In this document: positions 4,791 to 64,000 of the stretch, one piece after another
Layout of the letters: each line of letters opens with the position of its first letter
Numbering within the stretch: the stretch's first letter is position 1
Source: Pisolithus tinctorius
Taxonomy: Eukaryota; Basidiomycota; Agaricomycetes; Boletales; Pisolithaceae
DNA length: 64,000 bases
Direction of reading: 5' to 3'
Assembly: GCA_024663395.1 (NCBI GenBank)
Contig: JANFAH010000020.1
Location: 930,001 to 994,000, forward strand
Program-made: the position numbers and the translations under genes
The notes under the pieces: model-generated
What the model was told of the DNA's origin: nothing
Database searches by the model: none
The model's input: the letters and a program-made list of their open reading frames with translations, nothing else

Positions 4791-4799
4791 GTCCGAGAG

Positions 4800-12192: not shown

Positions 12193-12653
12193 CTGATTGA
12201 TGCCACAAGGTAGGTCTTTCAGCCTAATCATAATCAATTTACTGACATTTTGTCAGTGCTTCTCGTATAGTCGCATCATATAGTTATCGATTTGACTATG
12301 TATATATTTTGACATAATTTACCTTTGACACAAGCATCTTTACAAGTTTATCACATCCTGTATGTACTATGCCTGGGAGAGAGGAGCTCCAGCGTTAGTA
12401 CATGGATTAGTATCTCGGACCATCCTAGTATAGAGTGGAGCGGAAGGGGCACTAGGGGGCTAACATGTGTCATGTTAGCGGGAGGGGTGGCAGGGGAGCG
12501 AAGTGAGGTGTACGTTTCCTGGGGGGATGCGGTCAGCGTGGTTAACTTCGCGTTGATTGCAGAGGGCGCCGCTGGTATTCAAGGTAATTCTCTACTCGAT
12601 CTCAATACGCTCCAACATGTCCATTGTAGACAGCATACGTTCAAGTAAAATCA
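12193..12653. other. Convergent intergenic region
   Basis: This is the space between the 3' ends of the Spt5-like gene (plus) and the F-box gene (minus). It contains AT-rich stretches such as TATATATTTTGACAT near 12300, consistent with 3' untranslated sequence. No gene is supported. Confidence 0.5.
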
Positions 12654-14364
12654 TCAATACTGGTATGGAATAATTGTGATCTCCACATTTTGTTGAGTGA
12701 AGGGGCAGAAAATAGCCTTGTATCTATCGAGAGGGAGGGGTCTACCTGATGCGATACGCAGCACGCGAACATTAGGAAATGCTCTAAGCCAAGGGCCGCA
12801 GTGACCCTGAAAAACAGTTAGAGGCAACAAAGTAAGTGCAGAGAAGAACTTACAATTGCGTCGAAGACATCTGGAGTACTAAGGATTGGGTGGATTCCCC
12901 TAAAAGTGAGGTCTCTCACAGGGATTACGCGCTTGTCAGTTATTGGGAATGTGACGAATGCTGCAAGCTCGTCGGCGGAAGTGATCATGGGCATTGAGAT
13001 TTCAAGATGGGAAAGACGCGGGAGGTATTCCGCACACGACAAAATGTCGGAAAAGACATTTTGATTTCTTTCAGGATGGTAGGGATGAAATGTAATGTAT
13101 AGGCATTGGAAGTCACTGGGAAGGGTAATTACCTTCAGAAGGGGGAGGATCCTGGTAGCGGGTCCTGCGAGCTTTCGAAGGGAGTGAAGGACAGAACGAG
13201 GAGTGATATCTTCCACAGACATGGTAGGAAAGCCGCAATGGGAGATAGTTAGCTTGGAGATAGCCCGATGCGCGATTAGACAGGTAGCGAGGGCATCATA
13301 CGGGCAAGTCTGGTCCACCTCCAATTCAACGAGGGAAGGTAGGTTTACCTTGCCAAGGAGTACCGCCCACTGTAAAGGACTTAGGCCTGTATTATTAAGC
13401 CATAAAACTGCCAGTGGAGCACTTCGCAGCACAGAGAGGGTAAATCGGATAGAGTGTGGAAAAAAGAACATAGGCGACGAGATATTGAGAGATGTCAAGG
13501 TGCTTGGAAACAATTGGGTCATGCGAGGAATACGGATCAAGCCACCAGAAGCACTGTGGCTACTTGCATGAAGTTCAGTGCACCCAGAGCCTAGTATACT
13601 TTCTAGCAGAGAACCAAATATGGGGGACATGCCCGTCGGATCAATATATAAGTGCAAGTGCACTTGACAGACTGCTTGCGTATCCTTGAGGGTAGTCGAA
13701 GAACGCACACATTGCACCTAGCTTCCGTCTGCTTAATGTTTCATTAAGGAAGAGTGCAAACACGCACCTAATTGTCGCCTGCTTAATGTTTGTGAAGACC
13801 TGAACCACAAAGTCTTCACTGGTTTAAATGCAACGCGCCTCCACACAGGGAGGGCATTACAAACTACCTCATTCACATCCAGCCAACCAGCAATCGGCGG
13901 CCTGAAGCCTACCAAGACAAGATAACAATGACCGGCAACGCGTTGTAGTTGTTGGGATACTTGGGACAACCTTCGAAGTGAATCTGTGTCCAACAGGTCC
14001 ACAATTTCCAGTAGCAGTTCATCTGGAACTCGCGACAGATGGCAATCTCGGGGCACCTCCTAGATGCTATGAGGAAAGGTCAAATCTTGACATTGCTGGC
14101 CACTTACATATTTTGCGGGGAGCCCCACGGCATCGTCTTCTGCTGTGCACTTGGGAACCCGCCCAAATGACTGCATGAGAGGTTTCGCACCAGGATCTGC
14201 CTTGCGACCGCATATGGGTGGCTGGCGGGAAGTACCCCTCACCTTTTTGTAAGGTGGTCCCGGGGTATCTTCTACTTTGCGTTTGGGAACCCGCCCACAC
14301 AAATTCTTCTGTTAGCATACCATTTAGTAATAAGAGTGAGAAAATATCTAGTACACACCAGCAT
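12654..14364 (-). CDS. F-box protein with leucine-rich C-terminal region
   Basis: The minus-strand model is 14364-14359 (tentative start exon), 14308-14243, 14170-14108, 14059-13768, 13671-12854 and 12806-12654, about 465 aa with consistent phases. The F-box follows the short N-terminal exons: LSRVPDELLLEIVDLL, then SLRRLSQVSQQL. The large fifth exon has leucine-rich, irregularly repeated segments (LPSLVELEVD, LPRLSHLEIS). F-box proteins of this type tether substrates to SCF ubiquitin ligases through Skp1; the substrate is unknown. The N-terminal exons 14308-14243 and 14170-14108 are tandem duplicates, both opening with GRVPK, and only the first keeps the basic KRKVED motif. The first-exon choice is uncertain. 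The intron at 13672-13767 was inferred from phase. Confidence 0.75.
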
Positions 14365-44609: not shown

Positions 44610-44850
44610 CCATGCTGGTTAAACCACTGATGTGGAGGATGTTTGGGAGCTTGTACTCGGACCTTGTGTGAGTTGGTGTTGGTGGTGTCCCCCAGAACAG
44701 TTGTGCCGGACCACTTCGCTTGCTCTACAGCTCGAGCGTCAAGCAGCAATTGATGTTTCGATGTGCCTGCTCCTGCATCGAACAAGATCCTAGAACAATG
44801 CACACCCAGCGATTTATATTGATGCGATCCACCAAGAGCCCATGCACCTG
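44610..44850 (-). repeat. Diverged duplicate of the 28.77-28.97 kb segment
   Basis: Minus-strand translation shares SRI(L/M)FDAG, then GTSK(H/Y)QLLLD and EQAKWSG with 28770-28970, in the same orientation. Both copies keep this frame although the DNA has diverged, which hints at past selection on a protein. A stop (TGA) just upstream of the signature in the 28.9 kb copy shows that one is not a full gene. Confidence 0.55.
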
Positions 44851-44979
44851 GTTAGGCTGTATGAGGTGGTCAGCGGAGGCTGACAATCGGCCATTGGTGA
44901 TGGGCCAGCGGAGGTTGAGCCCATGTATGGCTTGTGCATGTGGGTTACATGAGAGCCATGAACCTATTGTCACCTTGTA

Positions 44980-45421
44980 GTATGGGAGAGCCCAACTGAT
45001 GAGTGTCACCATGTAGTACAGCTGAGCCTGAGAGGAAATGTTGTCATGAGGAATGGTGCAGCTGTGGTTTGAATTGTCATTGTCAGTTACAAGCAGGCTG
45101 GGGAGTAAGTGTCATCATGGACTATGGGGGGGGGGCCAATAAATGAGTGTCACCATAGCATACAGCTGAGCCCATAAGTAGGAGTCACTATAGAGAATGG
45201 CTGCGCAGAGGTTAGAATTGTCATCATGGGGTACAAGCCAGCTGTGGGACTAGGGTGTAGCCACTGCAATATGAGTAGTCCCAGGTAAGCCCAGAGTTGG
45301 GTGTCCCCAGAAGGTATGGATGGGCTCAGCCCCTGAGTTCACCCCTGGCAGCACTGTCATGCAAGCCGGCCCAACACCAATGCCATGCTAGCCGTCCTGG
45401 CAACACTGCCACGTGGGCTGG
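44980..45421. repeat. Degenerate repeats next to inverted element A
   Basis: 44980-45260 has loosely repeated units around GAGTGTCACCAT and TACAGCTGAGCC. 45350-45421 resembles, in reverse complement, the minisatellite unit found at 53190-54406 (CCAACACCAATGCCATGCTA against TAGCATGGCATTGGTGTTGG). Confidence 0.6.
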
Positions 45422-47236
45422 TGTGAGTCAAAGTGAGGTTTAGTGGTGGAAACCAACCAAAACCAACACAAAAGACAATGAAAGCGAGTGGTGGTGTGCC
45501 TATGCGGTACCTAGATGGTGGAACCTGTTCCTTGGGAGGTTTTTTTTGCGAACTACAACACTCAAAGATGAGTGCTGAGGGTTGGGGGTGCTCCTGACGA
45601 AGAAGGAGCAGGAATGCGAGAGGAAGCGATGGGGTAGACTGCTGTCAGCCTACAGAAGGGTGGATGATGACTTAATTCGATGTCCTGAGCTTCACTGAGC
45701 TCAGGGAGGACTTGGGGCGAAGTAGATCAATGATAGATGAGAATAAGTGAAGTAGACGATAGTTAGACCCTTAATAAAGTCTCAACTATCGAAGCTGCTG
45801 AATGATTTACTGAATGATAATAAAATGCGAGCAAGAGGGGCTCTCTGATGTCTTTTTTTTTTTTTTGCTACCTAAGTACAGTGATTTATATACAGTACAG
45901 GGGCGTTGCCTATGGAAAACAAGGTGCAAACACTTGGTAAGTGATTGGTAACTGATGAGTAAGGAATGTAAGCGGTGGGTAATCGTCTTAGAAAGCATTG
46001 GTGAGCATTGGTAAGGATAAGTAAGCCAAAAAGCAAAGAATCAGTAAGCAAGGGCAAAAGATTGGTAAGTATTGGCAATAGGTGAGTCAAAGACAGTCAG
46101 AATGTCAAGGTATGAGTCAAGTAATGTCAGAAACTGGGAAAGCACACTGGAATCGCATTAGGGGGAGGCTGTGCATGTCACATCTCGAAGAGATCGTTTC
46201 TGGGCCAAAGTGGGATGACAGAGAGGCAGCGCTGATCTGATGCTGATATAGTACATCCAAAAGTGGACAGGGTGAGTCAGATGTCAACAGGGGTCAAGCT
46301 TTGGGGGTCTGTGGGGTGACAGGAGCATAAGGGATTGCAACTTTCCCCCCCTTACTGTCCTCTCAGTGAAGCAAATAAAAACTTCATGAATGAGGCTCTG
46401 TTGGAAGAGAGGATGAAGGGGGAGCGTCTTCTGCTGTATCTTGCAATAAGGAGGCAAGATGTGCATCATACTCGTCATGGATGCAATCAGGGAGAGTGGA
46501 GAACAGTAGATTATACTGTAGCTGTCGCAATTTTGGAAGAATGATGGACGAGACTGGTATGAAGACGTTGCAGGGAGCAGGGAGGAAGGATCCATATGCT
46601 TCTTGGACTGGAGAGACTGAAACAACCACATAAGACCTTTCCAAGCGAATGACAGACCTGAGGCGACCAAAGAATGTCCTCCTAGAGGTCATACTGACAA
46701 AAAGAACACGCTGTCCAAGCTGGATGGGCTGAGAGGGGGCAGACGAGGGTGGGATGTACCAGGATGCTTCAGGACGGAAGCTAGTAGGAACTCCTGGTAG
46801 ATATACGTAGCCATGGTCCCTAGCAAAGGGGACAAGTGAAATGATTGATGTGGAGGTGGCCATATCAGAAGAATTAGCGAAATGAGCGTCTTTTGGAGGG
46901 AGTGCTGTAGAAACGTGTGGAGTGCGCAAATCCTTTCCAATCTTGGAAGGTAGGATCGCGTGGCTGAGCACTACAAGCGAGTGTGGGAATGGTTTTGGTG
47001 TCTGCAGAATTGGCGGAGATACGTCGAAAACCAGAATGCTGTACACGGGCGCTTAAGAACTTTGTTGGCGCTTAACTTGCTTCCTCCTTTTTTCTTTGGC
47101 ATTGACAACCCATTCTTGTGCGAGGGATGACTGCCGACATTTCTGGCTGTCCTTCTTTGCATGAGGGCTATGGTCTTCATCTCCATTCATCAGCTACATC
47201 CATGTCCACCTCACCAAACACCTTTGGTGTGTGACA
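45422..47236 (-). mobile_element. 1.81 kb TG...CA repeat, copy A (minus orientation)
   Basis: Read on the minus strand the element begins TGTCACACACCAAAGGTG (at 47236) and ends TTTGACTCACA (at 45422). It is nearly identical to copy B (54407-56217) in the opposite orientation. The TG...CA ends, the size and the absence of a polymerase suggest a solo long terminal repeat or an LTR-like non-autonomous element. It contains a 220-residue open frame. A TATATAAAT box near 45885 and a poly-T tract (45852-45866, poly-A on the element strand) lie in its 3' half. Confidence 0.8.
46384..47046 (-). CDS. Open frame in repeat copy A, unknown product
   Basis: A 220-residue frame starts with a hydrophobic segment and is Ser/Pro-rich. 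It differs from its counterpart in copy B at seven residues, with no frameshift or stop. No domain is recognised. It may be translated or may simply be intact because both copies are young. Confidence 0.35.
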   Translation of the reverse strand: MYSILVFDVSPPILQTPKPFPHSLVVLSHAILPSKIGKDLRTPHVSTALPPKDAHFANSSDMATSTSIISLVPFARDHGYVYLPGVPTSFRPEASWYIPPSSAPSQPIQLGQRVLFVSMTSRRTFFGRLRSVIRLERSYVVVSVSPVQEAYGSFLPAPCNVFIPVSSIILPKLRQLQYNLLFSTLPDCIHDEYDAHLASLLQDTAEDAPPSSSLPTEPHS

Positions 47237-48386
47237 CCGCATGGTTGTTCAACATCTACCCCCGGCATTCGAGATTCCTCTGCATCTTATTGCTATCGAT
47301 ATGCACATGGTTGACCCAGCAATAATCGTAGCGATGCAGACGTGGCCCCCTTTCAACCAGATGATGACGGCACAAGAGGCCGATGTGAAGGATCATCCAT
47401 GGTATCGCCTTCGTCACCAGCCTAAGTCTCACCCATATTACAAGGTGATGGAGGAGCTTACCGGGCCTTTGTCGAGGGCCGAGCACCAGGCACAGCTGGT
47501 GGATAAGGGGAAGGGGAAAGAGTTGGGTACAGATGAGGCTCAAGGGACTCGGCTTCCAGGTGAGCACTGATTCTGACGATGGCAATTGGGTAGACCACTG
47601 ACATGGGATCCGAACATGCACCCACAGACATTACGGCTAAGACCACTGGAGTTGCGATGCAGAAGCCAGGAAATGAAGAGGATCAGAACCGGGAGAAGGC
47701 ATGGGGCCGTAGCCAGTCAAGACATGGCCGGCCAGTGGCCAAGCCTGTCGATGCCAGTGATCAGACCAGTAGAGGCCGGAGCCGGTCAAGGAGACCAACG
47801 AAGAAGGCGAAACCAGTCGACGAGGATGTGCAGGACCGGTGAGACATCAACAACCCTCCCAAGTCTTGGGAGGTAGTGCCGGAAGCTGAGCGGTGTGTGA
47901 GATGCCAGGACAGGAGTTGGCCCTGTATGGTGCTAGCTGGCAGGGCATGCTGGCAATGCCACTGTACGAAATACTCATGCAGCTTGTTCAAGGGGAGGGG
48001 AGACAAGTCCGAGATGCAGCGAAAAGCCTCCTGATCAAGGCCTCGCCGGCAACGATCCCCAGAAGACACTGCTGGCCTTCCCACCACTTCAACGCTTGCT
48101 GCGCCAGCTCCATCGACTGGTCGACGAGCCAAACGTCAAAGGGCACCAAGCCGAAATCAATCTGCCAGTCCATCCAAAATAACAAGCCATCATTCGTCTC
48201 CTGGCCCACAGACTGGCCGCCCCAGTAAGTTGTTCACAGTCCTATATTTTTGGCTAATCGGTTGAACTAATATTTCTATTGAGTAGTGGAAATTATTACT
48301 CCGTCATGGCTATCCCGGTCACAGTCTCGTGCAAGAAGCGCTGCAACAGACCCACCCATCACTCCAGCGCTGACTACTACAACCAG
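47237..48386 (+). pseudogene. 5' part of a cysteine-rich gene split by an LTR retrotransposon
   Basis: Plus-strand exons encode WPPFNQMMTAQEADVKDHPW near 47340 and a basic Ser/Arg-rich section near 47690-47840. Near 47893-47985 there is a cysteine cluster CVRCQDRSWPC, then CWQCHCTKYSC, resembling paired zinc-binding knuckles. A last exon after the intron at about 48230-48288 reaches the retrotransposon boundary in frame. Two in-frame TGA codons (47840-47842 and 48032-48034) stand where CGA (Arg) would fit. The frame resumes at 52225. The left end is cut by repeat copy A. Proteins of this style are frequent near basidiomycete transposons, so it may itself be transposon-derived. Confidence 0.6.
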
Positions 48387-48745
48387 TGTAGGGAATGCAA
48401 TTTCCCTACCAGGGGAATTGCCTTATTTTGCTTGTTTTACTTCATTTTCATTCTAGATACTTTTTTCTTTGAGTTGCACTTAGATTTCGCATTTTTGGTT
48501 GCTTAGTCAGCAGTAGTGCTACTTGTGTATGGTTTTTTCCTAAAAAAAAAAATAGACAAATTCCCAGAGACGAGAGACGAGTTCAAGCAGGTCGTTTCCC
48601 TGCACCCAGACAGCCTCAGAAGCCTTCAGACAACAACCAGGATCCTTGCCTAGGCTATAGAAGCCCCTTTGGCTTACTCACTCCCCTCAGATATCCCTGC
48701 TTTACTCAGCTACTTCTACTCTCCCATAAATCTCATTTTCCTACA
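48387..48745 (+). repeat. 5' long terminal repeat
   Basis: The 359-bp LTR begins TGTAGGGAATG and ends TTTTCCTACA. The 3' two-thirds are almost identical to the 3' LTR, apart from a one-base difference in the poly-A tract and a few substitutions. Confidence 0.85.
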
Positions 48746-48747
48746 AC

Positions 48748-48764
48748 TGGAGCCCACCGCGAGG
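48748..48764 (+). other. Putative primer binding site
   Basis: TGGAGCCCACCGCGAGG starts two bases after the LTR end. A TGG start pairs with a tRNA CCA terminus, as in most LTR retrotransposons. The priming tRNA was not identified. Confidence 0.5.
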
Positions 48765-48970
48765 GGCTTCTGTCTTAGCCTGGCACCCATCCAAACCATC
48801 CCAGATTTTATTTTGCAGTCTCCAGCTTCATTTTCGCAATTTTCAGGCTCAGTTCAGCAGATTTTTGCCTTTTGGCCTCGTTTTGCAGTCACTTCACTCG
48901 CAACTTCGTGTTTTCCCACTCGCGCACACTCACATATCAAGCACTCGCACTCGTGTTACCCACTATCTTC

Positions 48971-50359
48971 ATGCTCGGCCTCAAAATTCCGTGCCGAGGC
49001 TCGCCTGAAGCACCGAGCTTCTCTGGGCGCCCCGAGGACCTTCAAAGTTATTTTGATGACATAATCGACTTCTGTGATGGATTCAGCCTCTCGGACGGGC
49101 TCGCGCGCATCAAATTTGCGCTCAAATATGCGCCTTTCGAATCGGCGGACCTCTGGTCCCACTTCGTCAGTAGTAGTCAAGGAGATTGGGCTCGTTTTAC
49201 CTCGGAAATCACTCAGCAGTACCCAGAATTGGACGAAACGAGTCGAAGTCATGCCACCGAGCTTGCCAGCCTAAAGGTTGGATTTGCGAGTTCAGATGTC
49301 ATCTCAATGTCATCCCTAGGGCAATATTATCGCAATTTCCGTCGAATTTCGTTATCTCTCGAGAACCTACTGGGTCCGTTGCCCCACCTGGCCAGTATGT
49401 TCAAGTATGGGTTCCCTCCAGAGTTCAGGCGAGAGGTGCTTGAACACCATGACGCATCAGAATATTCTGTGCTCAGTCTAATGTCTACAGCTAAGGAGGT
49501 CCTGAGGTCGAGCGGCGGCCTCTGGAAGAGCTGCAAGGTCGACAGTTCGCGTGCGCAGCCACCACAAGCCTTGGACAGCCGTACACCCCGCCGTTCGTAT
49601 TCGTTCTGCTTCTTCTGCGGACTTTCGGGCCATATTCGGGCTGGTTGCCATTCATACAAGTCGTATTTAGCTTCGGGAAAGTGTCTACTCATAAACGGCC
49701 GTGTTGTTCTACCTACAGGACTGGAAATCCCGCGCGAAGTTGCCGGACAGACTCTGCGAGACCGTCTCGACAACTGGTCTTTGCTGACAAGCCAGCTCGA
49801 GGCTTGTACAGGCCCATCGCCCGCTCGCTCGCTTTCACCCACAGCCGCGCCCTCTCGAAGCATGTTCGACACACCATCGCGTGTACCCGCTCGAATGAGC
49901 ATTGTGTCTACTCAGTCCCTACCTACTCTCCAGCTCGAGCCAGCAGTACCCAACCTGCCAGCCATTCCATCTCGTCGCTCGTCGGCTGAGCGCTCTCGTA
50001 GCTCACCGCACGCGCAGCCACAGTCAAGGTGGCCGTGTGGCCGAGGCCGATCGCCCTCGCGTCCTCGTTCATGCTCGCGCTCGCAGACTCGAACGGGTTC
50101 GTACACACGTTCGAAAGATGATTTCATACCAGTCCAGTCATATACCCGCAGCTCGATGCGTTATCACCCTCGAAGGCGCTCATATTCATATTCGACCAAT
50201 AGCTCACTCCCTTCCTCGTCGTCGTTGTCGTCGTCATCGTCGTCCTCGCGCTCACACTCTCGCTCACACTCGAGGAAAGCGCATTCACACGCCCGCTTCA
50301 AGCCGAAGCGGTCGCGCAGCCACAGTCGCGCGCCCCGGCGCTCTCGAAGAGCGCGTTGA
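48971..50359 (+). CDS. Gag-like protein with CCHC zinc knuckle
   Basis: The ATG at 48971 gives about 462 aa. Residues 20-200 have the helical look of Ty3/Gypsy capsid proteins (FSGRPEDLQSYFDD near residue 18). A retroviral-type zinc knuckle, CFFCGLSGHIRAGC (C-x2-C-x4-H-x4-C), is near residue 213. The C-terminal 140 residues are Arg/Ser-rich with long Ser runs and Arg-Ser dipeptides, which could bind RNA. No stop codons or frameshifts interrupt it. It would coat the element's RNA in particles. No pol follows. Confidence 0.8.
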   Translation: MLGLKIPCRGSPEAPSFSGRPEDLQSYFDDIIDFCDGFSLSDGLARIKFALKYAPFESADLWSHFVSSSQGDWARFTSEITQQYPELDETSRSHATELASLKVGFASSDVISMSSLGQYYRNFRRISLSLENLLGPLPHLASMFKYGFPPEFRREVLEHHDASEYSVLSLMSTAKEVLRSSGGLWKSCKVDSSRAQPPQALDSRTPRRSYSFCFFCGLSGHIRAGCHSYKSYLASGKCLLINGRVVLPTGLEIPREVAGQTLRDRLDNWSLLTSQLEACTGPSPARSLSPTAAPSRSMFDTPSRVPARMSIVSTQSLPTLQLEPAVPNLPAIPSRRSSAERSRSSPHAQPQSRWPCGRGRSPSRPRSCSRSQTRTGSYTRSKDDFIPVQSYTRSSMRYHPRRRSYSYSTNSSLPSSSSLSSSSSSSRSHSRSHSRKAHSHARFKPKRSRSHSRAPRRSRRAR

Positions 50360-50659
50360 TACCGCGTGTCACACAAGTTCTGTTATGTTTTTCTTTTCTT
50401 TTCTTTTTTGCTTATAGATCTTGCAGTATCTAGTACAGATCTACCTACGTTGTTATGCGAAGTTTCCGGTACATTATACACATTTAGTTTTTCTTTTCTT
50501 TTGTTCTGTGTTTTACTGTTTTACCCTCCCCGGACTCGAGTTCCCCGCAAAACGCCAAGTAGCATCGCACCTAGCACCTTCCCGCGCTCTACACGACGCC
50601 TTCCATCTGCAGATACAGTTCCGGCAAGGCACGCTGTCGACGAGGCCACCATCGACACT

Positions 50660-51960
50660 GCTCGTCGCTCGTCAAGACAAATGCTGCCTCCCTCGTACCG
50701 AGCGCGTATCTCGCTCGTTATCGCGCCGTGCCTCTCGCTTTTTGGCAGGCTCGTACTACTCGACGTCAGCTCTCTGTCGGTACCAAGCTCGTTTGCATGC
50801 GCCCAGCCGTTCAGGAGATATTTGCATTTTTGTGGATAGGTCCATTCTCAGGGTCCTGTGGTCGTATCTCGCTTGTTTCCGCGTCGCGTCTCTCGCTTTT
50901 TTGGAGGATTGTTGTCCACGACGAATGCTCCATGTTGATGTCAGGATTGTTCTGATAGGTCCAGTAACTCCGGAGATATTTGCATTTTTGTGCGAAGGTC
51001 ATCCTCGAGGTCTTGCCACAGTAGCTCGCACGGTTCTGCGCCGTTCCTCTCGCTTTTCGGGTCGTTCATCCCTCTCGCCGATCCCTCCCTGGGGACACCT
51101 ACTTTGTAAAATTCCGCGCAACCGTTGTCGAGATATCGGCGTTTTCGTATCCAGAGGGTTTCGAGAGGGTTTCGCGTACAACTCGGGATCGGCTGATCCA
51201 ATCGGCGTATTTCCTCGTTCTCCCTGTTCGTCTACGGGTCCTCTACCGTCTACTGGAGTTTCGTGTTGATCGCCCCAGCCGTTGTTGTGCGAGTTGACCC
51301 CTTCTCCCCACCCTCGAAGTCCTCTCGTCGTATCTCGCGCACTCGGGCACCGTTCCTCTCGCTTTTCTGGCAGTCCATTCCCCTCGCGTAGCCCTTTATG
51401 GGGATGCCTCTTTTGTCAAATTCCGCGCAGACATCGTTGAGATATGCTCATTTTCGTGGTTAGAGGCACTTTCGGACGTCTTTGCGAATATCTTAGGCCC
51501 GCGTAGACGGATTCCCTCCATCTCTTTTTCAGCATGTTCGCTACATTCCCCTCCATCGTTACTGGCAGTTTTGCCGCATCCCGAGCATCCATCGTTGGTC
51601 TGCAGTGTTCCCTCTTCCGTCAACAACGCTGTATGCATGATAGCTCGCCCATTTCACTGCCGGACCTCTCGCTTTTCGGGGACTTTGTACTACCCGTCGA
51701 GGGCTTTCTGACGGTATATCGTACATCACACTCGCTACTGCCATTGTGGAGATGTGCGCCATTTTGTTGTTGCCGGTGCCTTAGGACAACTCTGCGAGTA
51801 TCTCGCCCGTTTCTCGAATGGATCTCTCGCTTTTCGGGATCCTGATGCTACTGTTCAACAGCTTCAGAGTGGTACCTTTTCTGTCGTCGTCGCTGCAGCA
51901 CTCATGGCTACATTTGGTTTTTGGTGGATGAGGGTACCCTTGGGCAGTTTTGTGGATATC
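50660..51960 (+). repeat. Degenerate tandem repeat, about 157 bp period, inside the LTR element
   Basis: The motif CTCTCGCTTTT(T/C)(T/G)GG recurs at about 50729, 50887, 51049, 51352, 51665 and 51822, and GAGATATTTGCATTTTTGTG or variants recur at 50815, 50972, 51129, 51440 and 51740. Spacings are 157-162 bp or about twice that. The units are diverged and non-coding. Confidence 0.75.
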
Positions 51961-51982
51961 TCAGGATCGGGCGCACAGGTTC

Positions 51983-52224
51983 AGTCAGCAGTAGTGCTAC
52001 TTGTGTATGGTTTTTTCCTAAAAAAAAAAAATAGACGAATTACCAGAGACGAGAGACAAGTTCAAGCAGGTCGTTTCCCTGCACCCAGACAGCCTCAGAA
52101 GCCTTCAGACAACAACCAGGATCCTTGCCTAGGCTATAGAAGCCCCTTTGGCTTACTCACTCCCCTCAGATATCCCTGCTTTACTCAGCTACTTCTACTC
52201 TCCCATAAATCTCATTTTCCTACA
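51983..52224 (+). repeat. 3' long terminal repeat, 5' part missing
   Basis: It matches 48505-48745 of the 5' LTR and ends at the same CCTACA. The first about 118 bp of the LTR are absent; instead the tandem repeat region abuts directly, so the 3' LTR has been deleted or rearranged internally. Confidence 0.8.
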
Positions 52225-52700
52225 CCGGTGCCAATGATCCGTGCCATTGTGATGAATATTGGGAAGAGGTTACCATCCTAAAGCGGGAGAATGCTGACAT
52301 GAGGCAGGAGATAGAAGTAACCCGTACTGAGCTTGCTGCTCTCCATCGGGTGGTAGATGCCATCCGTAATCACCTATTCCCGGCCCTAGACGTGCTTAAC
52401 CATCCTCTGGTCCCATTTCACACTACCTCCAACCCTACACCGGTACCTCACATGCCGGTCATGGTCGAACTTGGCACTGCCACCAGTGTTGTAGAGGTTC
52501 AATCATCCCAAAGCGGCTCAAGACAGGAGTCCACTGAACCCCCCCCAGCTTCATTCGAGGGAGGTGCTGGCTTGGAAGTACCTCCTTCGAATGTTGAACC
52601 TGTGCATGGACCTGCTGGAGGTCCGGCAATCTCTATTACTCTGCCACCACCAGCAGTTGGATCAGCGCCCGAACAGGAAGGTAGGATGGAGGTCAACTAA
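52225..52700 (+). pseudogene. 3' part of the gene split by the LTR retrotransposon
   Basis: Directly after the 3' LTR the frame continues with ANDPCHCDEYWEE and a coiled coil (NADMRQEIEVTRTELAALH), then a Pro/Ser-rich tail ending in a stop at 52698-52700. Its phase fits the exon that ends at 48386, so removing the element would give one open frame across the junction. Confidence 0.6.
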
Positions 52701-53189
52701 CATTAATGTACATGTCATTTCACAATCCATTCATGTTTTTTTGTCTTTGTACTTGTACTTTGTTAGCTGGAGCAATATATTCTATATTGTCAAAATGTGA
52801 TCTCCAGGAAGAAGTAGCTACTGCTGCTGGTAGTTGTTACTGTATGCTTCAGATACTGGAAAACCAATCTGGTATGGTGATGTCTGTACCAAGGCCATGG
52901 TGTGACAAGTGCTAAGGGCCAATGGAGTCATGGTTCACCTAGATGATTGAATGATGACTGGCTGGCATAACTCAATTGCTTTTGCTGTATAGCATGATGG
53001 TGGCTTTCATGGTATTGTTCTGGCTTCCTGGAGGCCGTAAGGCATTGAATTCACAGTTTAAATGTACTGGGTAGTTGGCTAGTCTTCTGGTCATTACCAG
53101 AGCCACCATTGTGGTAATACATGCATCTCTGGCATGGTACTGGTACCAGTACATACATACACTGTGGACCTGCTCCTGGGAGGTCAGGC
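52701..53189. other. Intergenic, nothing recognised
   Basis: Ordinary sequence between the split gene and the minisatellite, with a T-rich stretch near 52735. Confidence 0.5.
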
Positions 53190-54406
53190 AGGTCAGGCAT
53201 GGTATGGTATGATTTCTGGGTGGGCCTCCATGCCATTGGTGCCGGGACAGCTTGACTGATGGCCTCATGGCATTGGTGGATGTGCCGGAACTCCTTACAA
53301 TGCTGCTGTGACAGCCTGCATGATGGCCTCATGGAATTGGGGATGTGCCGGAACATATGGCATAGGTGCTGGCACGGCTTCCATGGTGTTGGTGTTGTGC
53401 CGGAACACATTATGATGGTGCCGGGATGGCTTGCATGATGGAGTCATGGAATTGGGGATATGCCGGAATACATGGAACCGGTGCCGGGCCAGCTTCCATG
53501 GCATTGGTGCTGTGCCAGAACACATTACAATGGCATGGGTTCTGGGATGGCTTCCACAGCATTGGTGTTGTGCCGGAACACATTACATTACAATGGTGCC
53601 GGAATGGCCTGCATGATGGCCCCATGGCATTGGGGATGTGCCGGCACTAATTGCAAAGGTTCCGGGATGGCTTGCATGATGGACCTATCACATTGGGGAT
53701 ATGCCAGAATACATAGAGCTGGTGCCGGGACGCCCTCCATGGCATTGGGGATGTGCCGGAACTCATTACAAAGGTGCCGGGATGGTTTGCATGATGGACC
53801 TGTGGCATTGGGGATATGCCGGAATACATGGAACTGGTGCCGGTACACATTACAATGGCGCCAGAATGGCCTGCACAATAGGCCTCATGGTATTTGGGAT
53901 GGCTGGAACATACGGCATTGGTTCCGGCACGGCTTCCATGGCATTGGTGTTGTGCTGGAACACATTCCAATGGTGCCGGGATGGCCTGCATGATGGCCCC
54001 ATGGCATTGGGGATGTGCTGGAACACATGGACCTGGTGCCGGTGCCAGCTTACAATACATCGGTGCCGGGACAGCTTCCATGATGGCCCCAAGGCAGTGG
54101 CGATGTGCCGGAGCACGTGGCATTATGCTGGTTCACATTAAATCAGTGCCGGCATGGACGGCTTCCATGGCATTAGTCCTGGGTTTGTGTTGGCCTGGAT
54201 CACATTGCTTTGGTGCTGGGACATGTTGGATGGCATTGGTATTGGGTCTGCCCACGTGGAATCGATCCCAGGACAGCCAGCATGGCATTGGTGTTGTGCC
54301 AGCCTGCATGGCATTGGTATTGGGCCTATTCGTATTGCATTGGCGTTGGCCCGGCTCGCATGGCATTCGTCCCAGGATGGCCTGCATGGCATTTGTGGTG
54401 GGCCGG
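53190..54406 (+). repeat. Minisatellite array (GTGCCGG / CATGGCATTGG units)
   Basis: Around twenty imperfect copies of a 50-64 bp unit, often alternating 64 and 50 bp (a dimer of about 115 bp). Typical blocks are GGGGATGTGCCGGAACACAT and GCCGGGATGGCTTGCATGAT. Units become more diverged after about 54120. Long open frames on both strands come from the repeat composition and are not called as genes. Confidence 0.85.
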
Positions 54407-56217
54407 TGTCACACACCAAAGGTGTTTGGTGAGGTGGACATGGATGTAGCTGATGAATGGAGATGAAGACCATAGCCCTCATGCAAAGAAGGACAGCCAG
54501 AAATGTCGGCAGTCATCCCTCGCACAAGAACGGGTTGTCAATGCCAAAGAAAAAGGAGGAAGCGAGTTAAGTGCCAACAAAGTTCTTAAGCACCCGTGTA
54601 CGGCATTCTGGTTTTTGATGTATCTCCACCAATTCTGCAGACACCGAAACCATTCCCACACTCGCTTGTAGTGCTCAGCCACGCGATCCTACCTTCCAAA
54701 ATTGGAAAGGATTTGCGCACTCCACACGTTTCTACAGCACTCCCTCCAAAAGACGCTCATTTCACTAATTCTTCTGATATGGCTGCCTCCACATCAGTCA
54801 TTTCGCTTGTCCCCTTTGCTAGGGACCATGGCTACATATATCTACCAGGAGTTCCTACTAGCTTCCGTCCTGAAGCATCCTGGTACATCCCACCCTTGTC
54901 TGCCCCCTCTCAGCCCATCCAGCTTGGACAGCATGTTCTTTTTGTCAGTATGACCTCTAGGAGGACATTCTTTGGTCGCCTCAGGTCTGTCATTCGCTTG
55001 GAAAGGTCTTATGTGGTTGTTTCAGTCTCTCCAGTCCAAGAAGCATATGGATCCTTCCTCCCTGCTCCCTGCAACGTCTTCATACCAGTCTCGTCCATCA
55101 TTCTTCCAAAATTGCGACAGCTACAGTATAATCTACTGTTCTCCACTCTCCCTGATTGCATCCATGACGAGTATGATGCACATCTTGCCTCCTTATTGCA
55201 AGATACAGCAGAAGACGCTCCCCCTTCATCCTCTCTTCCAACAGAGCCTCATTCATGAAGTTTTTATTTGCTTCACTGAGAGGACAGTAAGGGGGGGAAA
55301 GTTGCAATCCCTTATGCTCCTGTCACCCCACAGACCCCCAAAGCTTGACCCCTGTTGACATCTGACTCACCCTGTCCGCTTTTGGATGTACTATATCGGC
55401 ATCAGATCAGTGCTGCCTCTCTGTCATCCCACTTTGGCCCAGAAACGATCTCTTCGAGATGTGACATGCACAGCCTCCCCCTAATGCGATTCCAGTGCGC
55501 TTTCCCAGTTTCTGACATTACTTGACTCATACCTTGACATTCTGACTGTCTTTGACTCACCTATTGCCAATACTTACCAATCTTTTGCCCTTGCTTACTG
55601 ATTCTTTGCTTTTTGGCTTACTTATCCTTACCAATGCTCACCAATGCTTTCTAAGACGATTACCCACCGCTTACATTCCTTACTCATCAGTTACCAATCA
55701 CTTACCAAGTGTTTGCACCTTGTTTTCCATAGGCAACGCCCCTGTACTGTATATAAATCACTGTACTTAGGTAGCAAAAAAAAAAAGACATCAGAGAGCC
55801 CCTCTTGCTCGCATTTTATTATCATTCAGTAAATCACTCAGCAGCTTTGATAGTTGAGACTTTATTAAGGGTCTAACTATCGTCTACTTCGCTTATTCTC
55901 ATCTATCATTGATCTACTTCACCCCAAGTCCTCCCTGAGCTCAGTGAAGCTCAGGACATCGAATTAAGTCATCATCCACCCTTCTGTAGGCTGACAGCAG
56001 TCTACCCCATCGCTTCCTCTCGCATTCCTGCTCCTTCTTCGTCAGGAGCACCCCCAACCCTCAGCACTCATCTTTGGGTGTTGTAGTTCACAAAAAAACC
56101 CTCCCAAGGAACAGGTTCCACCATCTAGGTACCGCATAGGCACACCACCACTCGCTTTCATTGTCTTTTGTGTTGGTTTTGGTTGGTTTCCACCACTAAA
56201 CCTCACTTTGACTCACA
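54407..56217 (+). mobile_element. 1.81 kb TG...CA repeat, copy B (plus orientation)
   Basis: It begins TGTCACACACCAAAGGTG and ends TTTGACTCACA, nearly identical to the reverse complement of copy A (45422-47236). It shares the TATATAAAT box (55748) and the A-rich tract (55775-55786). It is flanked on the left by the minisatellite and on the right by a truncated minus-strand gene. It is probably a solo LTR or LTR-like element. Confidence 0.8.
54596..55258 (+). CDS. Open frame in repeat copy B, unknown product
   Basis: A 220-residue frame, colinear with the one in copy A and with seven residue differences. No domain is recognised. Confidence 0.35.
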   Translation: MYGILVFDVSPPILQTPKPFPHSLVVLSHAILPSKIGKDLRTPHVSTALPPKDAHFTNSSDMAASTSVISLVPFARDHGYIYLPGVPTSFRPEASWYIPPLSAPSQPIQLGQHVLFVSMTSRRTFFGRLRSVIRLERSYVVVSVSPVQEAYGSFLPAPCNVFIPVSSIILPKLRQLQYNLLFSTLPDCIHDEYDAHLASLLQDTAEDAPPSSSLPTEPHS

Positions 56218-56467
56218 GCGGACCATTCCCTACATAGATGTCAGGAACGGATATCATGGCTGCAATTTCACTTACCAGCTGGGCCCACACAAGCTGAGCC
56301 GCTTTGCGCCAGTGCGTACCGTCCCGGCTGCGAAGCCCTTTTAGTTCCTGCATTGTAACCCTGGCAGCCTCCTCGACCATCTGCTTGGCATTTTCAGCGG
56401 TGATGACTGGCTGGATGTTGTCAGTTGATTGTGCCAGGATGAAGGTGCTGGTGTTGGCGGTAGACAT
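56218..56467 (-). pseudogene. Gene fragment truncated by repeat copy B
   Basis: From an ATG at 56467 (MSTANTSTFILAQSTD) a minus-strand frame encodes about 80 helical residues (ENAKQMVEEAARVTMQELKG) and stops as soon as it enters the repeat at 56217. In the proposed inversion model its missing part could be the 5' portion of the split gene at 47237, which would then lie on the same strand. Confidence 0.5.
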
Positions 56468-56987
56468 AGTGCTGTTTAACCCTGGGTGTGCAGGTGGTGG
56501 GTGCTTGAGCAGTGTGGTGAATTCGCCAGCTAGCATACACCATTCAACAGGCTTACATAAGCACAATACAAATGCTCACTCCAGTGATGCTGTGATTTAC
56601 AATATTCAATGTACTGGTTTAACCATTGAACATATTTTGCTGGGAGTATTGTATGGCAGTTGACAGTCATTCCACTAAGTGCCCATTTACATTATGTATG
56701 CACTTGCACATCCTGCATGATGACTCGTGAAAAAATATTGTGTAATACAATCACCTTGTTTATAAGGTCACTCCAGCCCCAAAATGAGATGCTTTTTTCG
56801 ACATCCGTGCATCTGCCTGACAATTGACTCCACACGGCAAAACCCACCAGTCATGACTGGGTTCCGGTGTGGTAAACAAGGTGCCTGCTGGCGGTGCCGG
56901 CCATGTTCTAGTCTTATCACTGGTACCGAAATCATTCTCAAACATCAGTGTAATCCCCATGGCACCTACAATGTTTTGAACTTTCAT

Positions 56988-58174
56988 ATGGCTCCCAGAA
57001 ATGTTAGATTCAGTTCCGGCAGTCCAGATAAACTCCGTAAGTCAGCCGGTCCAAGGACCATTACTTCTAATGACTGTGCAGTAATTCTGTCACGCCATGA
57101 TATGCAGTGGCTCGCATCTCTCAATGAGGATGAGGAAATGCTTACTGAAGATGACCTGCCGGACACGCCATCATCCCCGTTACGTGAGCCACCTTTCGAG
57201 CTGTCCCCAGCTCAAACAACACGCACAACCAGACCGGAACCCTCCTTCCAGTCCCCTGGTTCGCCCAGATCACCTTTGATAGAGCCAGCATGGGAATCAT
57301 TTGCACCGTCTCCCTCCTCTAGCAGCCCATTGGTTGAGCCTCCTTGGGATTCCATATCAACACGCCTCTCTGACAGCACCCCATTACTTGAGCCGGCATG
57401 GGACAAATCACCACCACCTGTTTCCCTAGGTACTCCATTGCATGAGCCGCCTTGGGGGTCGCCCCCACCATTTCAGTCCCCACCGGTCAGTCCTTTACAA
57501 GAACCGGCATTTCAGTCGCCTGCTGCCACAAGATCATCAGCTCACATCTACCCAACTCAAGCAGCTGGCCAATCACCACGACCGCTCATCCTATTGCATG
57601 AGCCCCAATTTCGGTCCTTGACTGCCTCTGTGTCACCAGCCCATCGCAATCCTATCCCGGTTCCCAGCCCAACAACATTCACATCGCCCGGCAGCAATTT
57701 CCCCAGTCCTCATCAACCTATGGACCTTTCAGATGCTCCTGCATCATTCAGCTCCACATCGATACCGCTGGCTAGATCCCCATCGCCAGTTCCAATCCTG
57801 TTGTCGCATTCAGAGCTTTTCACAGTCTCCCAGGAGTTCGCCATACAGCCAGGAGTTGATACTCCACAAACCGAGCGTAAGTCCAGAAGTTCCTACACAA
57901 CCATAGCTAAACATGTCTACCAGTTCAAATGTCAAGGCGGATCTCCGGTATTGTGGCTAGGAGTGGGGCACGTCAGCCAGACATCAATGCCGCACACGAT
58001 GCCAATCTGATCACCGCATATAGGTATTATGCGAATACCCTGGTGGATGCAACCAGGGAGTGGTGATCACATGTTGAGCGGCATGCCATGCTTACCAGAT
58101 TCCGGCAACAGTTAGCAAATCTTGTGGAGGAAGAGCTGGCAGTTGTAGGCTACCGTCTTAAACCAGACCAGCTT
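56988..58174 (+). CDS. Pro/Ser-rich protein with repeated PLxEPxW motifs
   Basis: The ATG at 56988 (MAPRNVRFSSGSPDKL) is preferred over upstream starts because the N-terminus is basic and ordered. Between residues about 60 and 210 at least six motifs recur about every 20 residues: PLREPPF, PLIEPAW, PLVEPPW, PLLEPAW, PLHEPPW, PLQEPAF, and a weaker LLHEPQF. The frame runs to 58007; a probable intron joins a helical C-terminal part at about 57975-58174 (NLITAYRYYANTLVDATREW). A TGA at 58064-58066 interrupts that part, again where CGA could have been, so the gene may be inactive. No known domain. It neighbours the KDZ genes and may belong to that element. Confidence 0.5.
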
Positions 58175-58667
58175 TAATTTGTATATTTAACTCATTTCAA
58201 TGAACATTATGTTGAATGGAATTGGAGAAGTGCACAAATTGGCCATGATTGGATTGTGACAGTGGGTTACAGTACATGGTAGCTATGGGGCCGGTAATTC
58301 ACCAGCAATTCTTGCACTGTGCACTATATATGTTTGTCGCCAGTCTACGGGAAACCATTAGGTACTGGCCTCAATTCTACCTTCGCCTCCTCATTGTTGG
58401 AGTAGGATAATTATCATCTGGCTGCCATGGGGGCCTATGATTCCGCTCTGGGCAACGAGCCACACCATCCACTTCTGCTTGATCCAACAGTCTATCGTCC
58501 CTGTCCATCGCATGGCCTCTAGGCCTGGGATTCGAATTCCTACCCACCAGATCAACTCCTGACATAGATAAGCATGTGTAATTGTGTTATGGATGTATAC
58601 CTACCATCATTAGGTGATATGACTGTCTTATCATTCTGGGCTGCTGTAGAATGCTGTAATGAGAGGA
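58175..58667. other. Intergenic, nothing recognised
   Basis: Between the 3' ends of the plus-strand repeat-motif gene and the minus-strand KDZ-neighbour gene. No credible gene. Confidence 0.5.
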
Positions 58668-60592
58668 TTAACCAAGTGTGCATGGAAACCGACCATTGGA
58701 TCTGATTCTTGGCTTGGGCTTGGGCTTCCTTGCAGTTGAATCGACACCATCATTGGCATGATTGTCTGATACAATTCTATCAGCAATATTCATTGTTGCC
58801 AGATACCACTTACCAGCTGGATTGGGGTATGCAGTAGCCGTATTGCACTGGTCTGATGTGGACTGGTTCCACCGTCTGTTGTCCTCCTGTGCATTGGATG
58901 TTCCAGTGGGATGATCTACAGCACACAATTCCAAGGTCATGTTAGGGTTACCAGTAAAAAATCTGACCAGCTCCGACATACCATCTATCCGTTGCCATTT
59001 GGTGGAAGGTTTTGTGGGAGGAGCTGGTTCCTCCTCTGAGTGATGTCCGTAGTCAGAGCCATCATCAGAATTTACTTAATGTGCCATCAGTTATGTATAT
59101 CCAAATTGACCATGACCTCACCTTCCGTCCAGGGTCTCTTCCCTTTGGCTTTGTCTGACCAGCGTTGGTGTTTGGAGACCGGCTCCTCCAGAGAACCATC
59201 CTGAGATCTCCACCTTCAGAACCGGAAGACATCTTCTGGGTGCTCCTGCTGTCACTCCTTCCAGAACTCCAAGGTTTCGATTAGTTCATGATGTGTCAGC
59301 CTGGTGGGCTCTTTGAATGGTATATTGGGAGGAAGATACTTGGAAGACACGTAGGATGCCCGGTTGTCAGCTATTGCGGCCCAAGGTACACTGGCATTCA
59401 TCTTCCCACAAGCCAAGCCTGTGTTTAGATGTTAGTAACTCATCGCCCATGGAAATTGGCACGTACGATAATGGCCGGTTACGAATACCCTCATGATGTC
59501 CTTCAATTCCGGTGTCCGTAAGTCCAAGAGATTCAGAAGAACGGGAATGCCATCATCATTGGTGGACAGGGAGAATTGAGACCGCTTTTTTCCTTTCCGT
59601 GCTTTTACTGTGGTTTGACTGGCCTCATCCTCTCCGCTGCCATCCTCCGTACCATTGGCCCCGAAGGCCTTCTTTGCGTAGGCTGACCACTTTCCATGAA
59701 GGTCTTCCCAATCCGAATAGAGCTCTCCATCGCCCAGCTCGTCATTGAAGTCATTCCTACACCGGTCAGATATGGTGAAGCCTGTCAGGAAAGCACTCAC
59801 ACTCCAACCATCACTTCGCCATCCTTATCCTTCCATGCCGACATGATCACCACTCTCATCCCACACTGCTTCCACATGTCGTACGCAAACTGTTTTGCAT
59901 ACTTTCGGCCCTTACTTGTTGCGGCCCTGCATTTAAGTTAGTATTGCCCATGGGAGACCTTGGATGCTTACTCTGCCTGGGCTTCGGGTGGCAGCTTTCT
60001 CTCGTTCCACTCTTTCGCCAAACGTGCTGCCTGGTCCAATTCAGCCTTGGTCAATGACTGGACTACCTTCTGAACAGCCGGTTGATAGTGTTTGATCATA
60101 GCCGATGTCCCAGGCTGTATTCCAGCCTTCACAAGTACTTGCTGGATATCCTTCTTACGCTGCAGCTTGATCACCTTTAGGGCCATCCATTTGGAGCCAT
60201 ACTTGACCAAGGCCTTCCATGCCCGGGACCAACTGTTGTTATACATCCAGTTCTTGATGGCCTGTAAAATATACTTAACACGACTGCAAGCACATCAATA
60301 CTGTTAAGCTTACTGTCCGTTTTCTATTCCATTCATTTTTTTTGAGGCTCTTGTTGGCATCCAGCCACTTGATTTTGTTCTGCATGCCCTCCATCAGTGA
60401 GGCCCTTTTGTTTGTGTCAGCTTCCTTCCAATCCTTTAGACTGTCTTGGAGGATTTGAAGTTCATCTGGTCTCAGCTTTCCCGGTGCAGATTTTGCTGTC
60501 TCCATGCTATCCGAGCTAGATTCCTCATTGGAGGAAAAGTCCTCCTCATCTGAGGTATTAACACCATTAGTACTGTGATCACTGCTGGCCAT
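58668..60592 (-). CDS. Hypothetical protein divergent from the KDZ transposase
   Basis: Minus-strand exons include 60592-60314, 60261-59972, about 59930-59800, 59760-59470, about 59410-59140 and 59060-58668. The ATG at 60592 starts MASSDHSTNGVNTSDEEDF. An acidic Ser-rich N-terminus precedes helical, Lys/Trp-containing parts (KYGSKWMALKVIKLQRKKD), then FAYDMWKQCGMRVVIM, an acidic region (NGTEDGSGEDE), a leucine-rich strip (IPVLLNLLDLRTPELKDIMR) and a basic tail (KPKPKPRIR). No known domain. It is transcribed away from the transposase across a 383-bp gap, the layout expected for a two-gene transposon, so a role in transposition is inferred. Confidence 0.6.
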
Positions 60593-60975: not shown

Positions 60976-63900
60976 ATGGGCAAGTCACGAATCGCCCAAG
61001 CTGCAGCAGCCACCCCAGTAACCCATGTCACTTGGAAAAAAGTGAAAACAACCAGGGGATCCAAAGAAAAGATGGTCAAGTTTACTCCGGGAAAGAAGGC
61101 AAGATATGCAACCGGCCAAAGCAACGAATCACCTACTAGGGCAGGATCTTCGAGCATCCAGGAACCCAATTTAGTCCAGGGTAATGATGCTGACCTATAT
61201 TGCTACATGGATGATGCATCACCACCGAGGACATCAAGAATTCCAAAAAGCCAGGTGTGCATTATCAAACATCCCGGTGCTGGCAATGTGTGCCTTACGG
61301 TATTACAGAACAGTTATCTGGAAGAGTGGCTGCCCTATAAGAGTAGATACCTGTCTGTGCTCCTGGACATGGAGGCCCCACCCGATGTCATGGCTTGTTT
61401 TGTGTGTAAAGCAGAAGGGGCACCATATAGATGCATGGACTGTGTGCATTGCCCATTGTCTTGTAAAACATGTTGCATCGAGCAACACAAGCTCAGACCG
61501 TTCCATCAGGTACAAAAATGGAATGGAAGATTCTTTGAAGACTTCACTCTACAGCTGGTGAGTTCCAGTTTCAACCCATCATCTGTGATGACTGATATCG
61601 TAGGTTGGTTTGGTGCTACACTTGGGCCATGCCGGAGCACCATGCCCGGCAGGAGAAGGTTCTTGGGAGGATGCTGCCAGCCATGTAGATGATGAGTGGG
61701 AGGACATCAAGGAGAGTCAACAACCAGCACATCTCAACCCCACCGGATGATAGAAACTATCTGACAGTTGTGGACACTGGTGGTGTGCACTTTTGCAATG
61801 TGCAGTATTGCAACTGCCCTGGGTCTGAGGATTCACATCTTCAGCTTACCATGGCTGGCCTATTCCTGGCTACGACTAAGGCACCAAGGACGGCTTTCAC
61901 TTTCCAGGTGCTGGACGACTTCATCAGGGACAATGTTGAATGTGGAACCTCTGCCATGAACTATTACAGCAAACTTCAGAGAGTCACCTCAAGTGTGTTT
62001 CCTCACCTAGTGCTGGTGAGTGCAATCACCCCTGGCCTACCATATGCCACATTGCTCATGCCGGTCGAAGAATAGGTATAGGGAATTGCTCAGGGTGTCG
62101 AGAATGTGGAGGCTCCTAAAGCTGTTGAAATGGCAGGGATTCCATCAACAGTTGCCTGATCCCCAGGCTGGTGAACTTGTCCTCTTCTGCCCTGCCTGTC
62201 CCCAGCCAGGGATAAATGTACCGGATCAGGATATTGCTCTCTCTGAGTCCGTATTCTATTCATTGTTTCAAAGGCATTGTTAGCCTGACTTGTGTAGCTG
62301 GCGGTTTGCTAGGACCTTTGTGATGGACGGCAACTTCAAGGCCGAGCATATGCTGCCCAAGAATGCTGCCGAAGAGGTCTGGCTCATGGATGGAAATGGC
62401 TTCATGGTCACATCAGCTCCATACAAGGAATATTTGACTGGGACTGTAAATAGAATAGAAGTTGGTGCGCCATGATATCTCCAAACGCACCGGACTGATT
62501 GCATCATGCAGAAATCTGACTGCAATAACCACCGGGCTGTTAATCAAGCAAATGCACAAAGGAATAAGTTGGAATCGACCGGAATTGGTGGATGTGCCTG
62601 TGCGAGGCATGGCTGTTTTGTACCTCATGCAATGGTCGACTTTCAGAAGGGAGAGCAGTACGCACCAATTCATAGTCCCTGGTCATGACTAACAATATAG
62701 CAGGCAGGTCAATATGGATTATGCTCTGGTCCATGCCATGCACCATGGATTGGACCCCCGGCAACCGGTCATAACCTTTTATGACATCAATTGTCAGTAT
62801 AGCAAGAACTTGGCCCGCTGGCTTGAGGAAAATAGATATCTCTCTCTGCCTTCCGGATTACAGATTCAGCCCAGCATTGGACTATGGCATGTCCATGGCC
62901 ATCAGACAGAGTGCTTCGCCATATATGCTCCAAACTTTATTCTGGGTGCCAGCCGGGTGGACAGTGAAATCATGGAGACCCTCTGGTCTTCTCTCAACAT
63001 AATCTCACCATCAGCCCGGGGAATGGCGACAGCACATCATCAGGAGTTGCTGGACTTCCAAATGAATGATAGTAACTTCCTCAAAATGATATGGATGCGT
63101 ATGTCATCACAGTACCTGGTTGACCACCACTTAATTACTTGCACATAGCATCAGCATTGAAACGGAAGTTCAAGGTTGCCAAGCAGTCATTAGCAACAAT
63201 CCAAGATAAATTCAACGAGTTGGATAGCAAGGTACCAGATGGCTTGCGTCGGTTATGGGTGGAACAAGAACTTGTGGCGCAGTCATGCTGGCAGAATACT
63301 CCGCAGGCCATGGACATATATGAAGTCCGGCTGGAGAAGGGTAAGGGGGCCAACTGTATCATCTGTCCCATAACTTATGTACATCATGGTAGCACCCACC
63401 ATGAAAGCCATTGAGATTGACCTAATCCATAAGGACCATTCATTCAGCAGCTCACGCGGTTCAGCTACTTGGATTGCATGGGCATTAAAGGTTGAGCAGG
63501 CTCAAATAGTGCTTGCTATGGATACACGACATATGGACACCAGGGCAACAGAGGCAGACCGGTTGTTGATTTCGTGCCGGCAAGACCGGTTGCAATCACA
63601 GATTGATGCACTAGTACATGGAGCAGCCCAGTTCATCGGAAATGACTGGCAAGTTAACCCCAGGCAAAGGCCCAGAAGTATAGCCCCACTCGACGGGGAC
63701 AGTAATGACGAAACTGATGATCCATTCCTCCCTGATTGTCCTGGTCACCAGGAGGTCAGCGATGTTCCACTGCCATCATATATCGGAGCACAGTATTTCC
63801 ATGACATGGGCCTCAGCAGTCTTGTGGAACAGGAAATACATCTGAGACAGGGCCAGGCAAATGATGCATTGCATGAATTGCATCTGGCCCTCGTGGACAA

Positions 63901-64000
63901 GGCCATGATATTTTGTACAGATGTCCAGAAAGGAGGGAACTACAAAATGACAACCCAGGCATGGGGCCGGATATCCAATGCAGAGGCAATGGTTCAGCGG
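60976..64000 (+). CDS. KDZ-family transposase (3' end beyond window)
   Basis: The ATG at 60976 starts MGKSRIAQ. The first exon (to 61557) ends with the CxC2-type cysteine cluster seen at the N-terminus of KDZ transposases: CFVCKAEGAPYRCMDCVHCP near 61398, then CKTCCIEQHKLRPFH. Later exons carry the RNase H-like core with acidic residues in VMDGNFKAEH near 62322, TFYDINCQYSKNLARW near 62775, and HVHGHQTECFA followed by SEIMETLW near 62890-62985. The C-terminal part (63160 on) is helical. Several introns of about 50 nt interrupt it. KDZ elements are DNA transposons abundant in mushrooms. I saw no certain frameshift in the core, so this copy could be intact, but a few junctions (62060-62330, 62470-62700) are uncertain. 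Confidence 0.88.

Follow-up and report, generated by a model that had tools for sequence, protein, structure and literature searches.

Two nearly identical 1.81 kb repeats lie in opposite orientation on one contig of Pisolithus tinctorius (assembly GCA_024663395.1, 92.5 Mb in 221 contigs), within a stretch of 64,000 nt that we refer to as the window (contig JANFAH010000020.1, here C20:930001-994000; coordinates without a contig prefix count from its first letter). An earlier note, made from the letters alone, had proposed that the interval between these repeats, which we call A and B, was flipped by recombination. Has this block of DNA really been turned around, and what turned it? Our analyses indicate that the block 47237-54406 (7.17 kb) was almost certainly inverted by recombination between A and B, which are long terminal repeats (LTRs) of one retrotransposon family. 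The order of the flanking sequences in uninterrupted paralogues decides the question, more than does the match between the 4-bp flanks of the two repeats.

Copy A occupies 45422-47236 on the minus strand and copy B occupies 54407-56217 on the plus strand. Read on the element strand, both start with TGTCACAC and end with GACTCACA, giving the TG...CA ends of the repeat. The description of A and B as near-identical inverted repeats held up: their shared inverted arms are 450, 1237 and 151 nt long and 98-99% complementary, and the two copies differ by 29 substitutions over 1810 aligned bases (~98% identity). When the genome was searched with A, at least 40 near-full matches (≥94% identity, counting A and B themselves) and five partial ones were returned; this search scored 40 of 2059 candidates, so that the copy number is a lower bound and the sample is limited to those copies that resemble A best. 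A 37-base LTR-end pattern, allowing up to three mismatches, matched at 416 places genome-wide – some of which may come from related families – versus 0 for a reversed control.

Three pairs of copies (on C28, C11 and C18) stand in direct orientation, ~7.7-8.2 kb apart. In the C18 element (L028), the sequence enclosed by the LTRs encodes RVT_1 (368-545), RNase H (611-740), H2C2 (872-927) and rve (947-1035) domains, the rve match scoring 30.4 bits, below its 32.6 cut-off. The order reverse transcriptase, RNase H, integrase is that of Ty3/gypsy elements. A homologue search with the L028 pol frame gave 953 matches, and the sole organism-named relative among the 120 listed was from Trametes cubensis, at 60% identity; taken with a KDZ transposase domain in the window, described below, this points to a basidiomycete. 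A and B thus belong to a Ty3/gypsy retrotransposon family and, as they have no interior, are its solo LTRs, an identification that the earlier note had not made. Each copy also contains a 220-codon open frame (46384-47046 in A, 54596-55258 in B), and a Pfam search with the frame of B, the one searched, gave no match. A plasmid search with A as the query found nothing.

Intact insertions would be expected to carry the same short duplication on either side, and here the flanks of A and B agree only crosswise, as the earlier note had read them. On the element strand A lies between GCGG and CCAG, and B between CCGG and GCGG. One target duplication is thus divided between the inner flank of A (CCGC, 47237-47240) and the outer flank of B (GCGG, the reverse complement of CCGC, 56218-56221); the other is divided between the inner flank of B (CCGG, 54403-54406) and the outer flank of A (CTGG, or CCAG on the element strand, 45418-45421). 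The first pair is exact. The second differs by one CpG transition, a change also present in copies of the surrounding sequence that the LTRs do not interrupt. Exact duplications flanking each copy separately, which the note had named as evidence against a flip, were looked for and are absent. Taken alone, a 4-bp flank match is weak evidence, because the targets of this family are N-CpG-N or decayed forms of it and just two bases vary freely.

Stronger evidence comes from the sequence in which the repeats sit. All four flanks of A and B are part of a single dispersed repeat, H, which the earlier note had not recognised. An inversion of the block 47237-54406 predicts that LTR-free copies of H join the sequence at 47238 to that at 56218 (junction 1) and the sequence at 54405 to that at 45421 (junction 2). 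LTR-free copies in the same genome have these joins, with the joined pieces matching opposite strands of the window. At junction 1, the outer flank of B lies within 30 bases of the inner flank of A, on the opposite strand, in 35 of 39 places (window excluded); in the four places without it, the row begins deeper in the query (at 25 to 548). At junction 2, the outer flank of A lies within 30 bases of the inner flank of B in 23 of 29 places. The rows used there are those reaching near the junction, with short secondary array rows and one longer row left out; the longer row (C26:175565-176379) is not contiguous across junction 2, and counting it gives 23 of 30. The window's own order within 3 kb was found in none of the rows used for either junction. 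Reversing 47237-54406, as the earlier note had suggested, therefore reproduces the order of the other H copies at both junctions.

The 20 H copies that we fetched give the same picture. At a score cut of 150 bits, junction 1 is contiguous in 18 of them and junction 2 in 14, with one copy (L040) added for junction 2 by its letters. At junction 1 a related LTR is present in copies L047 and L048, and the misses at junction 2 come from other insertions, a variant array or a fetched stretch that ends there. Read at the base level, the uninterrupted copies contain GGTCCGCA and GGGCCGGCCC, or CpG-decayed forms of them, with each 4-bp target present once (at the first target CCGC, or CCAC/CTGC). What can be seen directly is that the duplications are crosswise, that uninterrupted copies have the other order, and that the block is inverted in the assembly.

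Reversal also reunites two features that the present arrangement divides. Minisatellite sequence had been reported outside A in reverse complement and inside B in forward orientation, and we found tandem-array rows at 45344-45411 and at several places within 53261-54367; the stretch 45352-45418 is 82% identical to the reverse complement of 54250-54316. Both parts are contiguous in uninterrupted copies, so that turning the interval restores one continuous array. The note had pictured this array as closing around a single insertion, which is correct for the array but not for the locus as a whole: the gene site holds a second insertion. There, too, the expectation that reversal would bring the gene pieces onto one strand was borne out by open frames running through the restored junction 1, one of 140 codons in uninterrupted copy L031 (2135-2557) and a shorter one of 82 codons in L033 (2322-2570).

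How might this arrangement have arisen? Two retrotransposons of one Ty3/gypsy family would have inserted in opposite orientation into a single H copy, ~3.3 kb of host sequence apart, each generating a target duplication of 4 bp (CCGC in one case, CCGG in the other). Loss of its interior would have reduced each element to a solo LTR. A crossover by homologous recombination between the inverted LTRs would have turned the 7.17 kb between them, swapping the flanks and leaving the duplications crosswise. We infer that the exchange was a single crossover between integrated LTRs and not some more intricate repair process that would end in the same arrangement.

Similar pairs occur elsewhere in the genome. 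The 40 copies sampled include five pairs of neighbours in opposite orientation that lie no more than 15 kb apart: that of the window and those on C19, C203, C33 and C24, in which the LTRs are separated by 667 bp, 446 bp, 1867 bp and 14.6 kb, respectively. Allowing one CpG transition, the targets are crosswise at C19 (CTGC and GCGG around one copy, GCGG and CCGC around the other) and at C203 (GTGG and CCGG, with CCGG and GCGG). The C19 interval is inverted relative to all four fetched paralogues. The C203 interval is inverted relative to L089 and L090 on both sides, and relative to L091, which is adjacent on one side only. The fourth C203 relative, L088, represents this very locus on a separately assembled contig, C36, with an interval 99.8% identical; we considered whether C36 and C203 hold opposite orientations of one interval and rejected this, as the two are collinear. 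Three of the five close inverted pairs (window, C19 and C203) are thus flipped, in what is a small sample. On this comparison of sequences, flipping between inverted LTRs is a recurrent event in the genome.

Several observations weigh against inversion by LTR recombination, at this locus or as a recurrent process. Two of the five close inverted pairs, those on C24 and C33, are not inverted where testable. Both targets of the C24 pair are CCGG and hence uninformative, and the flanks of its copy at 375087, the one copy tested, are uninverted in 3/3 fetched paralogues. The left side of the C33 pair is not inverted, as judged from one uninterrupted relative in the window; the right flank of its second LTR has no match in the window, and the target letters of this second LTR are mismatched. 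At the locus itself, one target pair is mismatched at one base (CCAG/CCGG). A clear mosaic breakpoint that would place the crossover was sought by comparing A with B in an alignment of 24 copies and was not found: the two are free of substitutions at LTR positions 1-123 and 527-970, there is no clean switch, and position 78 is the sole position common to A and B alone in the alignment columns printed. Finally, the basis is a single assembly.

The relative used for C33 lies at 12068-13935, is 99% identical to the C33 interval and belongs to another repeat family (25 match rows). The contig also carries a third solo LTR (L009, C20:1007095-1008904), ~21 kb to the right of B. Of the 24 aligned copies it is the closest to B, separated from it by 20 differences, all but one of which fall in the first 571 bases, and its target duplication is intact except for one CpG transition.

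With a single assembly as the basis, the alternative that survives best is an artefact in which the interval was joined backwards through the 1.81 kb inverted repeats while the true sequence is uninverted. An error at repeats that are 98% identical is formally possible, but we consider it very unlikely here. Contigs reach 6.75 Mb, which would suggest long reads, and A and B can be told apart at 29 sites. At a second locus, the separate contigs C203 and C36 agree in their arrangement, and the C19 and C203 loci total just ~4.3 and ~4.1 kb.

Even less probable is an aberrant transposition or integration, in which the ends of one element acted on two targets and inverted the block between them. 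Alternative transposition, as in Ac/Ds, can yield inversions bordered by element ends, and in this respect such an event would resemble what we see. When the block is reversed, however, a full 4-bp duplication surrounds a complete LTR at each site, as from two ordinary integrations, and neither site contains interior element sequence. Two independent insertions without any inversion, their flanks agreeing crosswise by chance with the help of the N-CpG-N preference, can be dismissed as exceedingly improbable: agreement at the outer two bases is not rare once the CpG middle is fixed, but each copy's own flanks disagree, and the uninterrupted paralogues put the flanks crosswise, an order that refutes this explanation.

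The preference that makes short flank matches weak evidence is itself a property of the family. We surveyed the targets of the 40 sampled copies as 36 sites, merging three full-length pairs and dropping one C4 5' LTR with an unlisted partner; C42 and C153, whose flanks are shared, possibly represent a single site. At 16 of the 36 sites the two 4-bp flanks are identical, at 10 they differ only by a CpG transition, and at 10 they are mismatched. Six of the mismatched sites form the three crosswise pairs, one (C34, CTGT and CCAT) is explicable if both sides have decayed, and for three we have no explanation. In those three cases no partner was found: they are the second copy in L027, a solo LTR at C24:260477 (CCGC and GCGT) and a full-length element at C11:1116769-1128577 (ACGG and GCGT). 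The C24 and C11 cases are possibly products of exchange with distant copies.

The central dinucleotide of the 72 flanks is CG in 51, TG in 16 and CA in five, and nothing else occurs; for comparison, CG makes up 4.4% of the dinucleotides in the window. Similar targets are found for two other elements, a related LTR in L048 (CTGG and CCGG) and a smaller element nested in the window (CCAG and CCGG). From these letters we infer that the LTR family would integrate at CpG, with later loss of CpG by deamination.

The host repeat H is present in the window in several pieces, delimited by homology to its other copies. Outside A lies its end part with part of the minisatellite (44836-45417). The flipped block contains part of its gene-like region (47241-48386) and a further piece with most of the minisatellite array (52225-54402), and H continues outside B (56222-58715, to the limit of the fetched stretches). 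Homology to the other fetched copies ends at 44832-44837, with different flanks beyond, excepting L038, which is cut by the fetched end. In copy L045, H runs straight into sequence matching window positions 62695-63998. This sequence holds a KDZ transposase domain (PF18758, 62714-63145, plus strand, E 8.3e-25), and because H continues directly into it in that one copy, H is probably a KDZ DNA transposon. The domain search also placed a CxC2 domain at 61689-62072.

The smaller LTR element (TGTAGG...CCTACA) nested in H occupies 48387-52224 on the plus strand. Of the 20 fetched H copies, 19 have its two flanks directly joined, and the letters show the same for the twentieth, L036. It contains a gag-like frame of 495 codons (48872-50359) for which there was no Pfam match; its second LTR is missing roughly the initial 118 bases present in the first, and the element has internal repeats at ~158 bp spacing. 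The related LTR in L048 (on C21, ~4259-6120) is ~78% identical to A; its insertion point in that H copy is ~20 bp away from target 1. Scanning the window against Rfam at the gathering threshold, and for tRNAs, gave no hits.

LTR-mediated inversion is an already known process. The locus shares with ectopic (non-allelic) homologous recombination between LTRs or inverted repeats its high-identity inverted repeats, breakpoints within them, and exchanged flanks and target duplications; it differs from ectopic LTR recombination generally in that solo LTRs are nested in one transposon copy, of which many uninterrupted copies give the ancestral order. A report on Saccharomyces describes a flip/flop region on chromosome XIV, in which 4 kb inverted repeats with sporulation genes surround 24 kb found in both orientations in populations, and its authors propose gene conversion with occasional crossover between the inverted repeats (PMC9731477). 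As described there, a block between inverted repeats is likewise reoriented by their recombination, whereas the repeats here are LTRs and the orientation is known from one assembly.

With basidiomycete Ty3/gypsy elements, the family shares RVT_1, RNase H, H2C2 and rve domains in this order; features that may set it apart are the long LTR (1.81 kb) and the 4-bp, CpG-centred targets. For ZAM, a site-specific LTR element of Drosophila, the target is CGCGCg (PMC2527525), and target choice is there, too, built on a CG-containing palindrome, whereas only the central CpG is fixed here. Word searches, in which absence is unproven, found neither this locus nor a paralogue-based proof of inversion in a KDZ transposon in open-access titles and abstract starts, and recognised no report of CpG-centred integration of fungal LTR elements in the open-access literature.

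The interest of this locus lies in how clearly the inversion can be proved, in the repeated occurrence of flipping within one genome and in the CpG-centred targets. LTR-mediated inversions are often inferred from breakpoints alone – here, uninterrupted copies of the host transposon supply the ancestral order, and because many such copies are present, that order, the two sites of insertion and the exchange can all be traced at single-base resolution. The CpG-centred targets suggest a preference of the integrase or of chromatin. As a tentative, rather doubtful extension, LTR retrotransposons of this fungus may insert at CpG steps nearly exclusively, with methylated CpG inside resident transposons as a conceivable target, and so seed close inverted LTR pairs that flip back and forth often enough for about half of the pairs to be seen inverted. 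Flipping at three of five such pairs suggests that LTR-LTR flipping is frequent in this genome, and its frequency would be measurable genome-wide by the same paralogue test.

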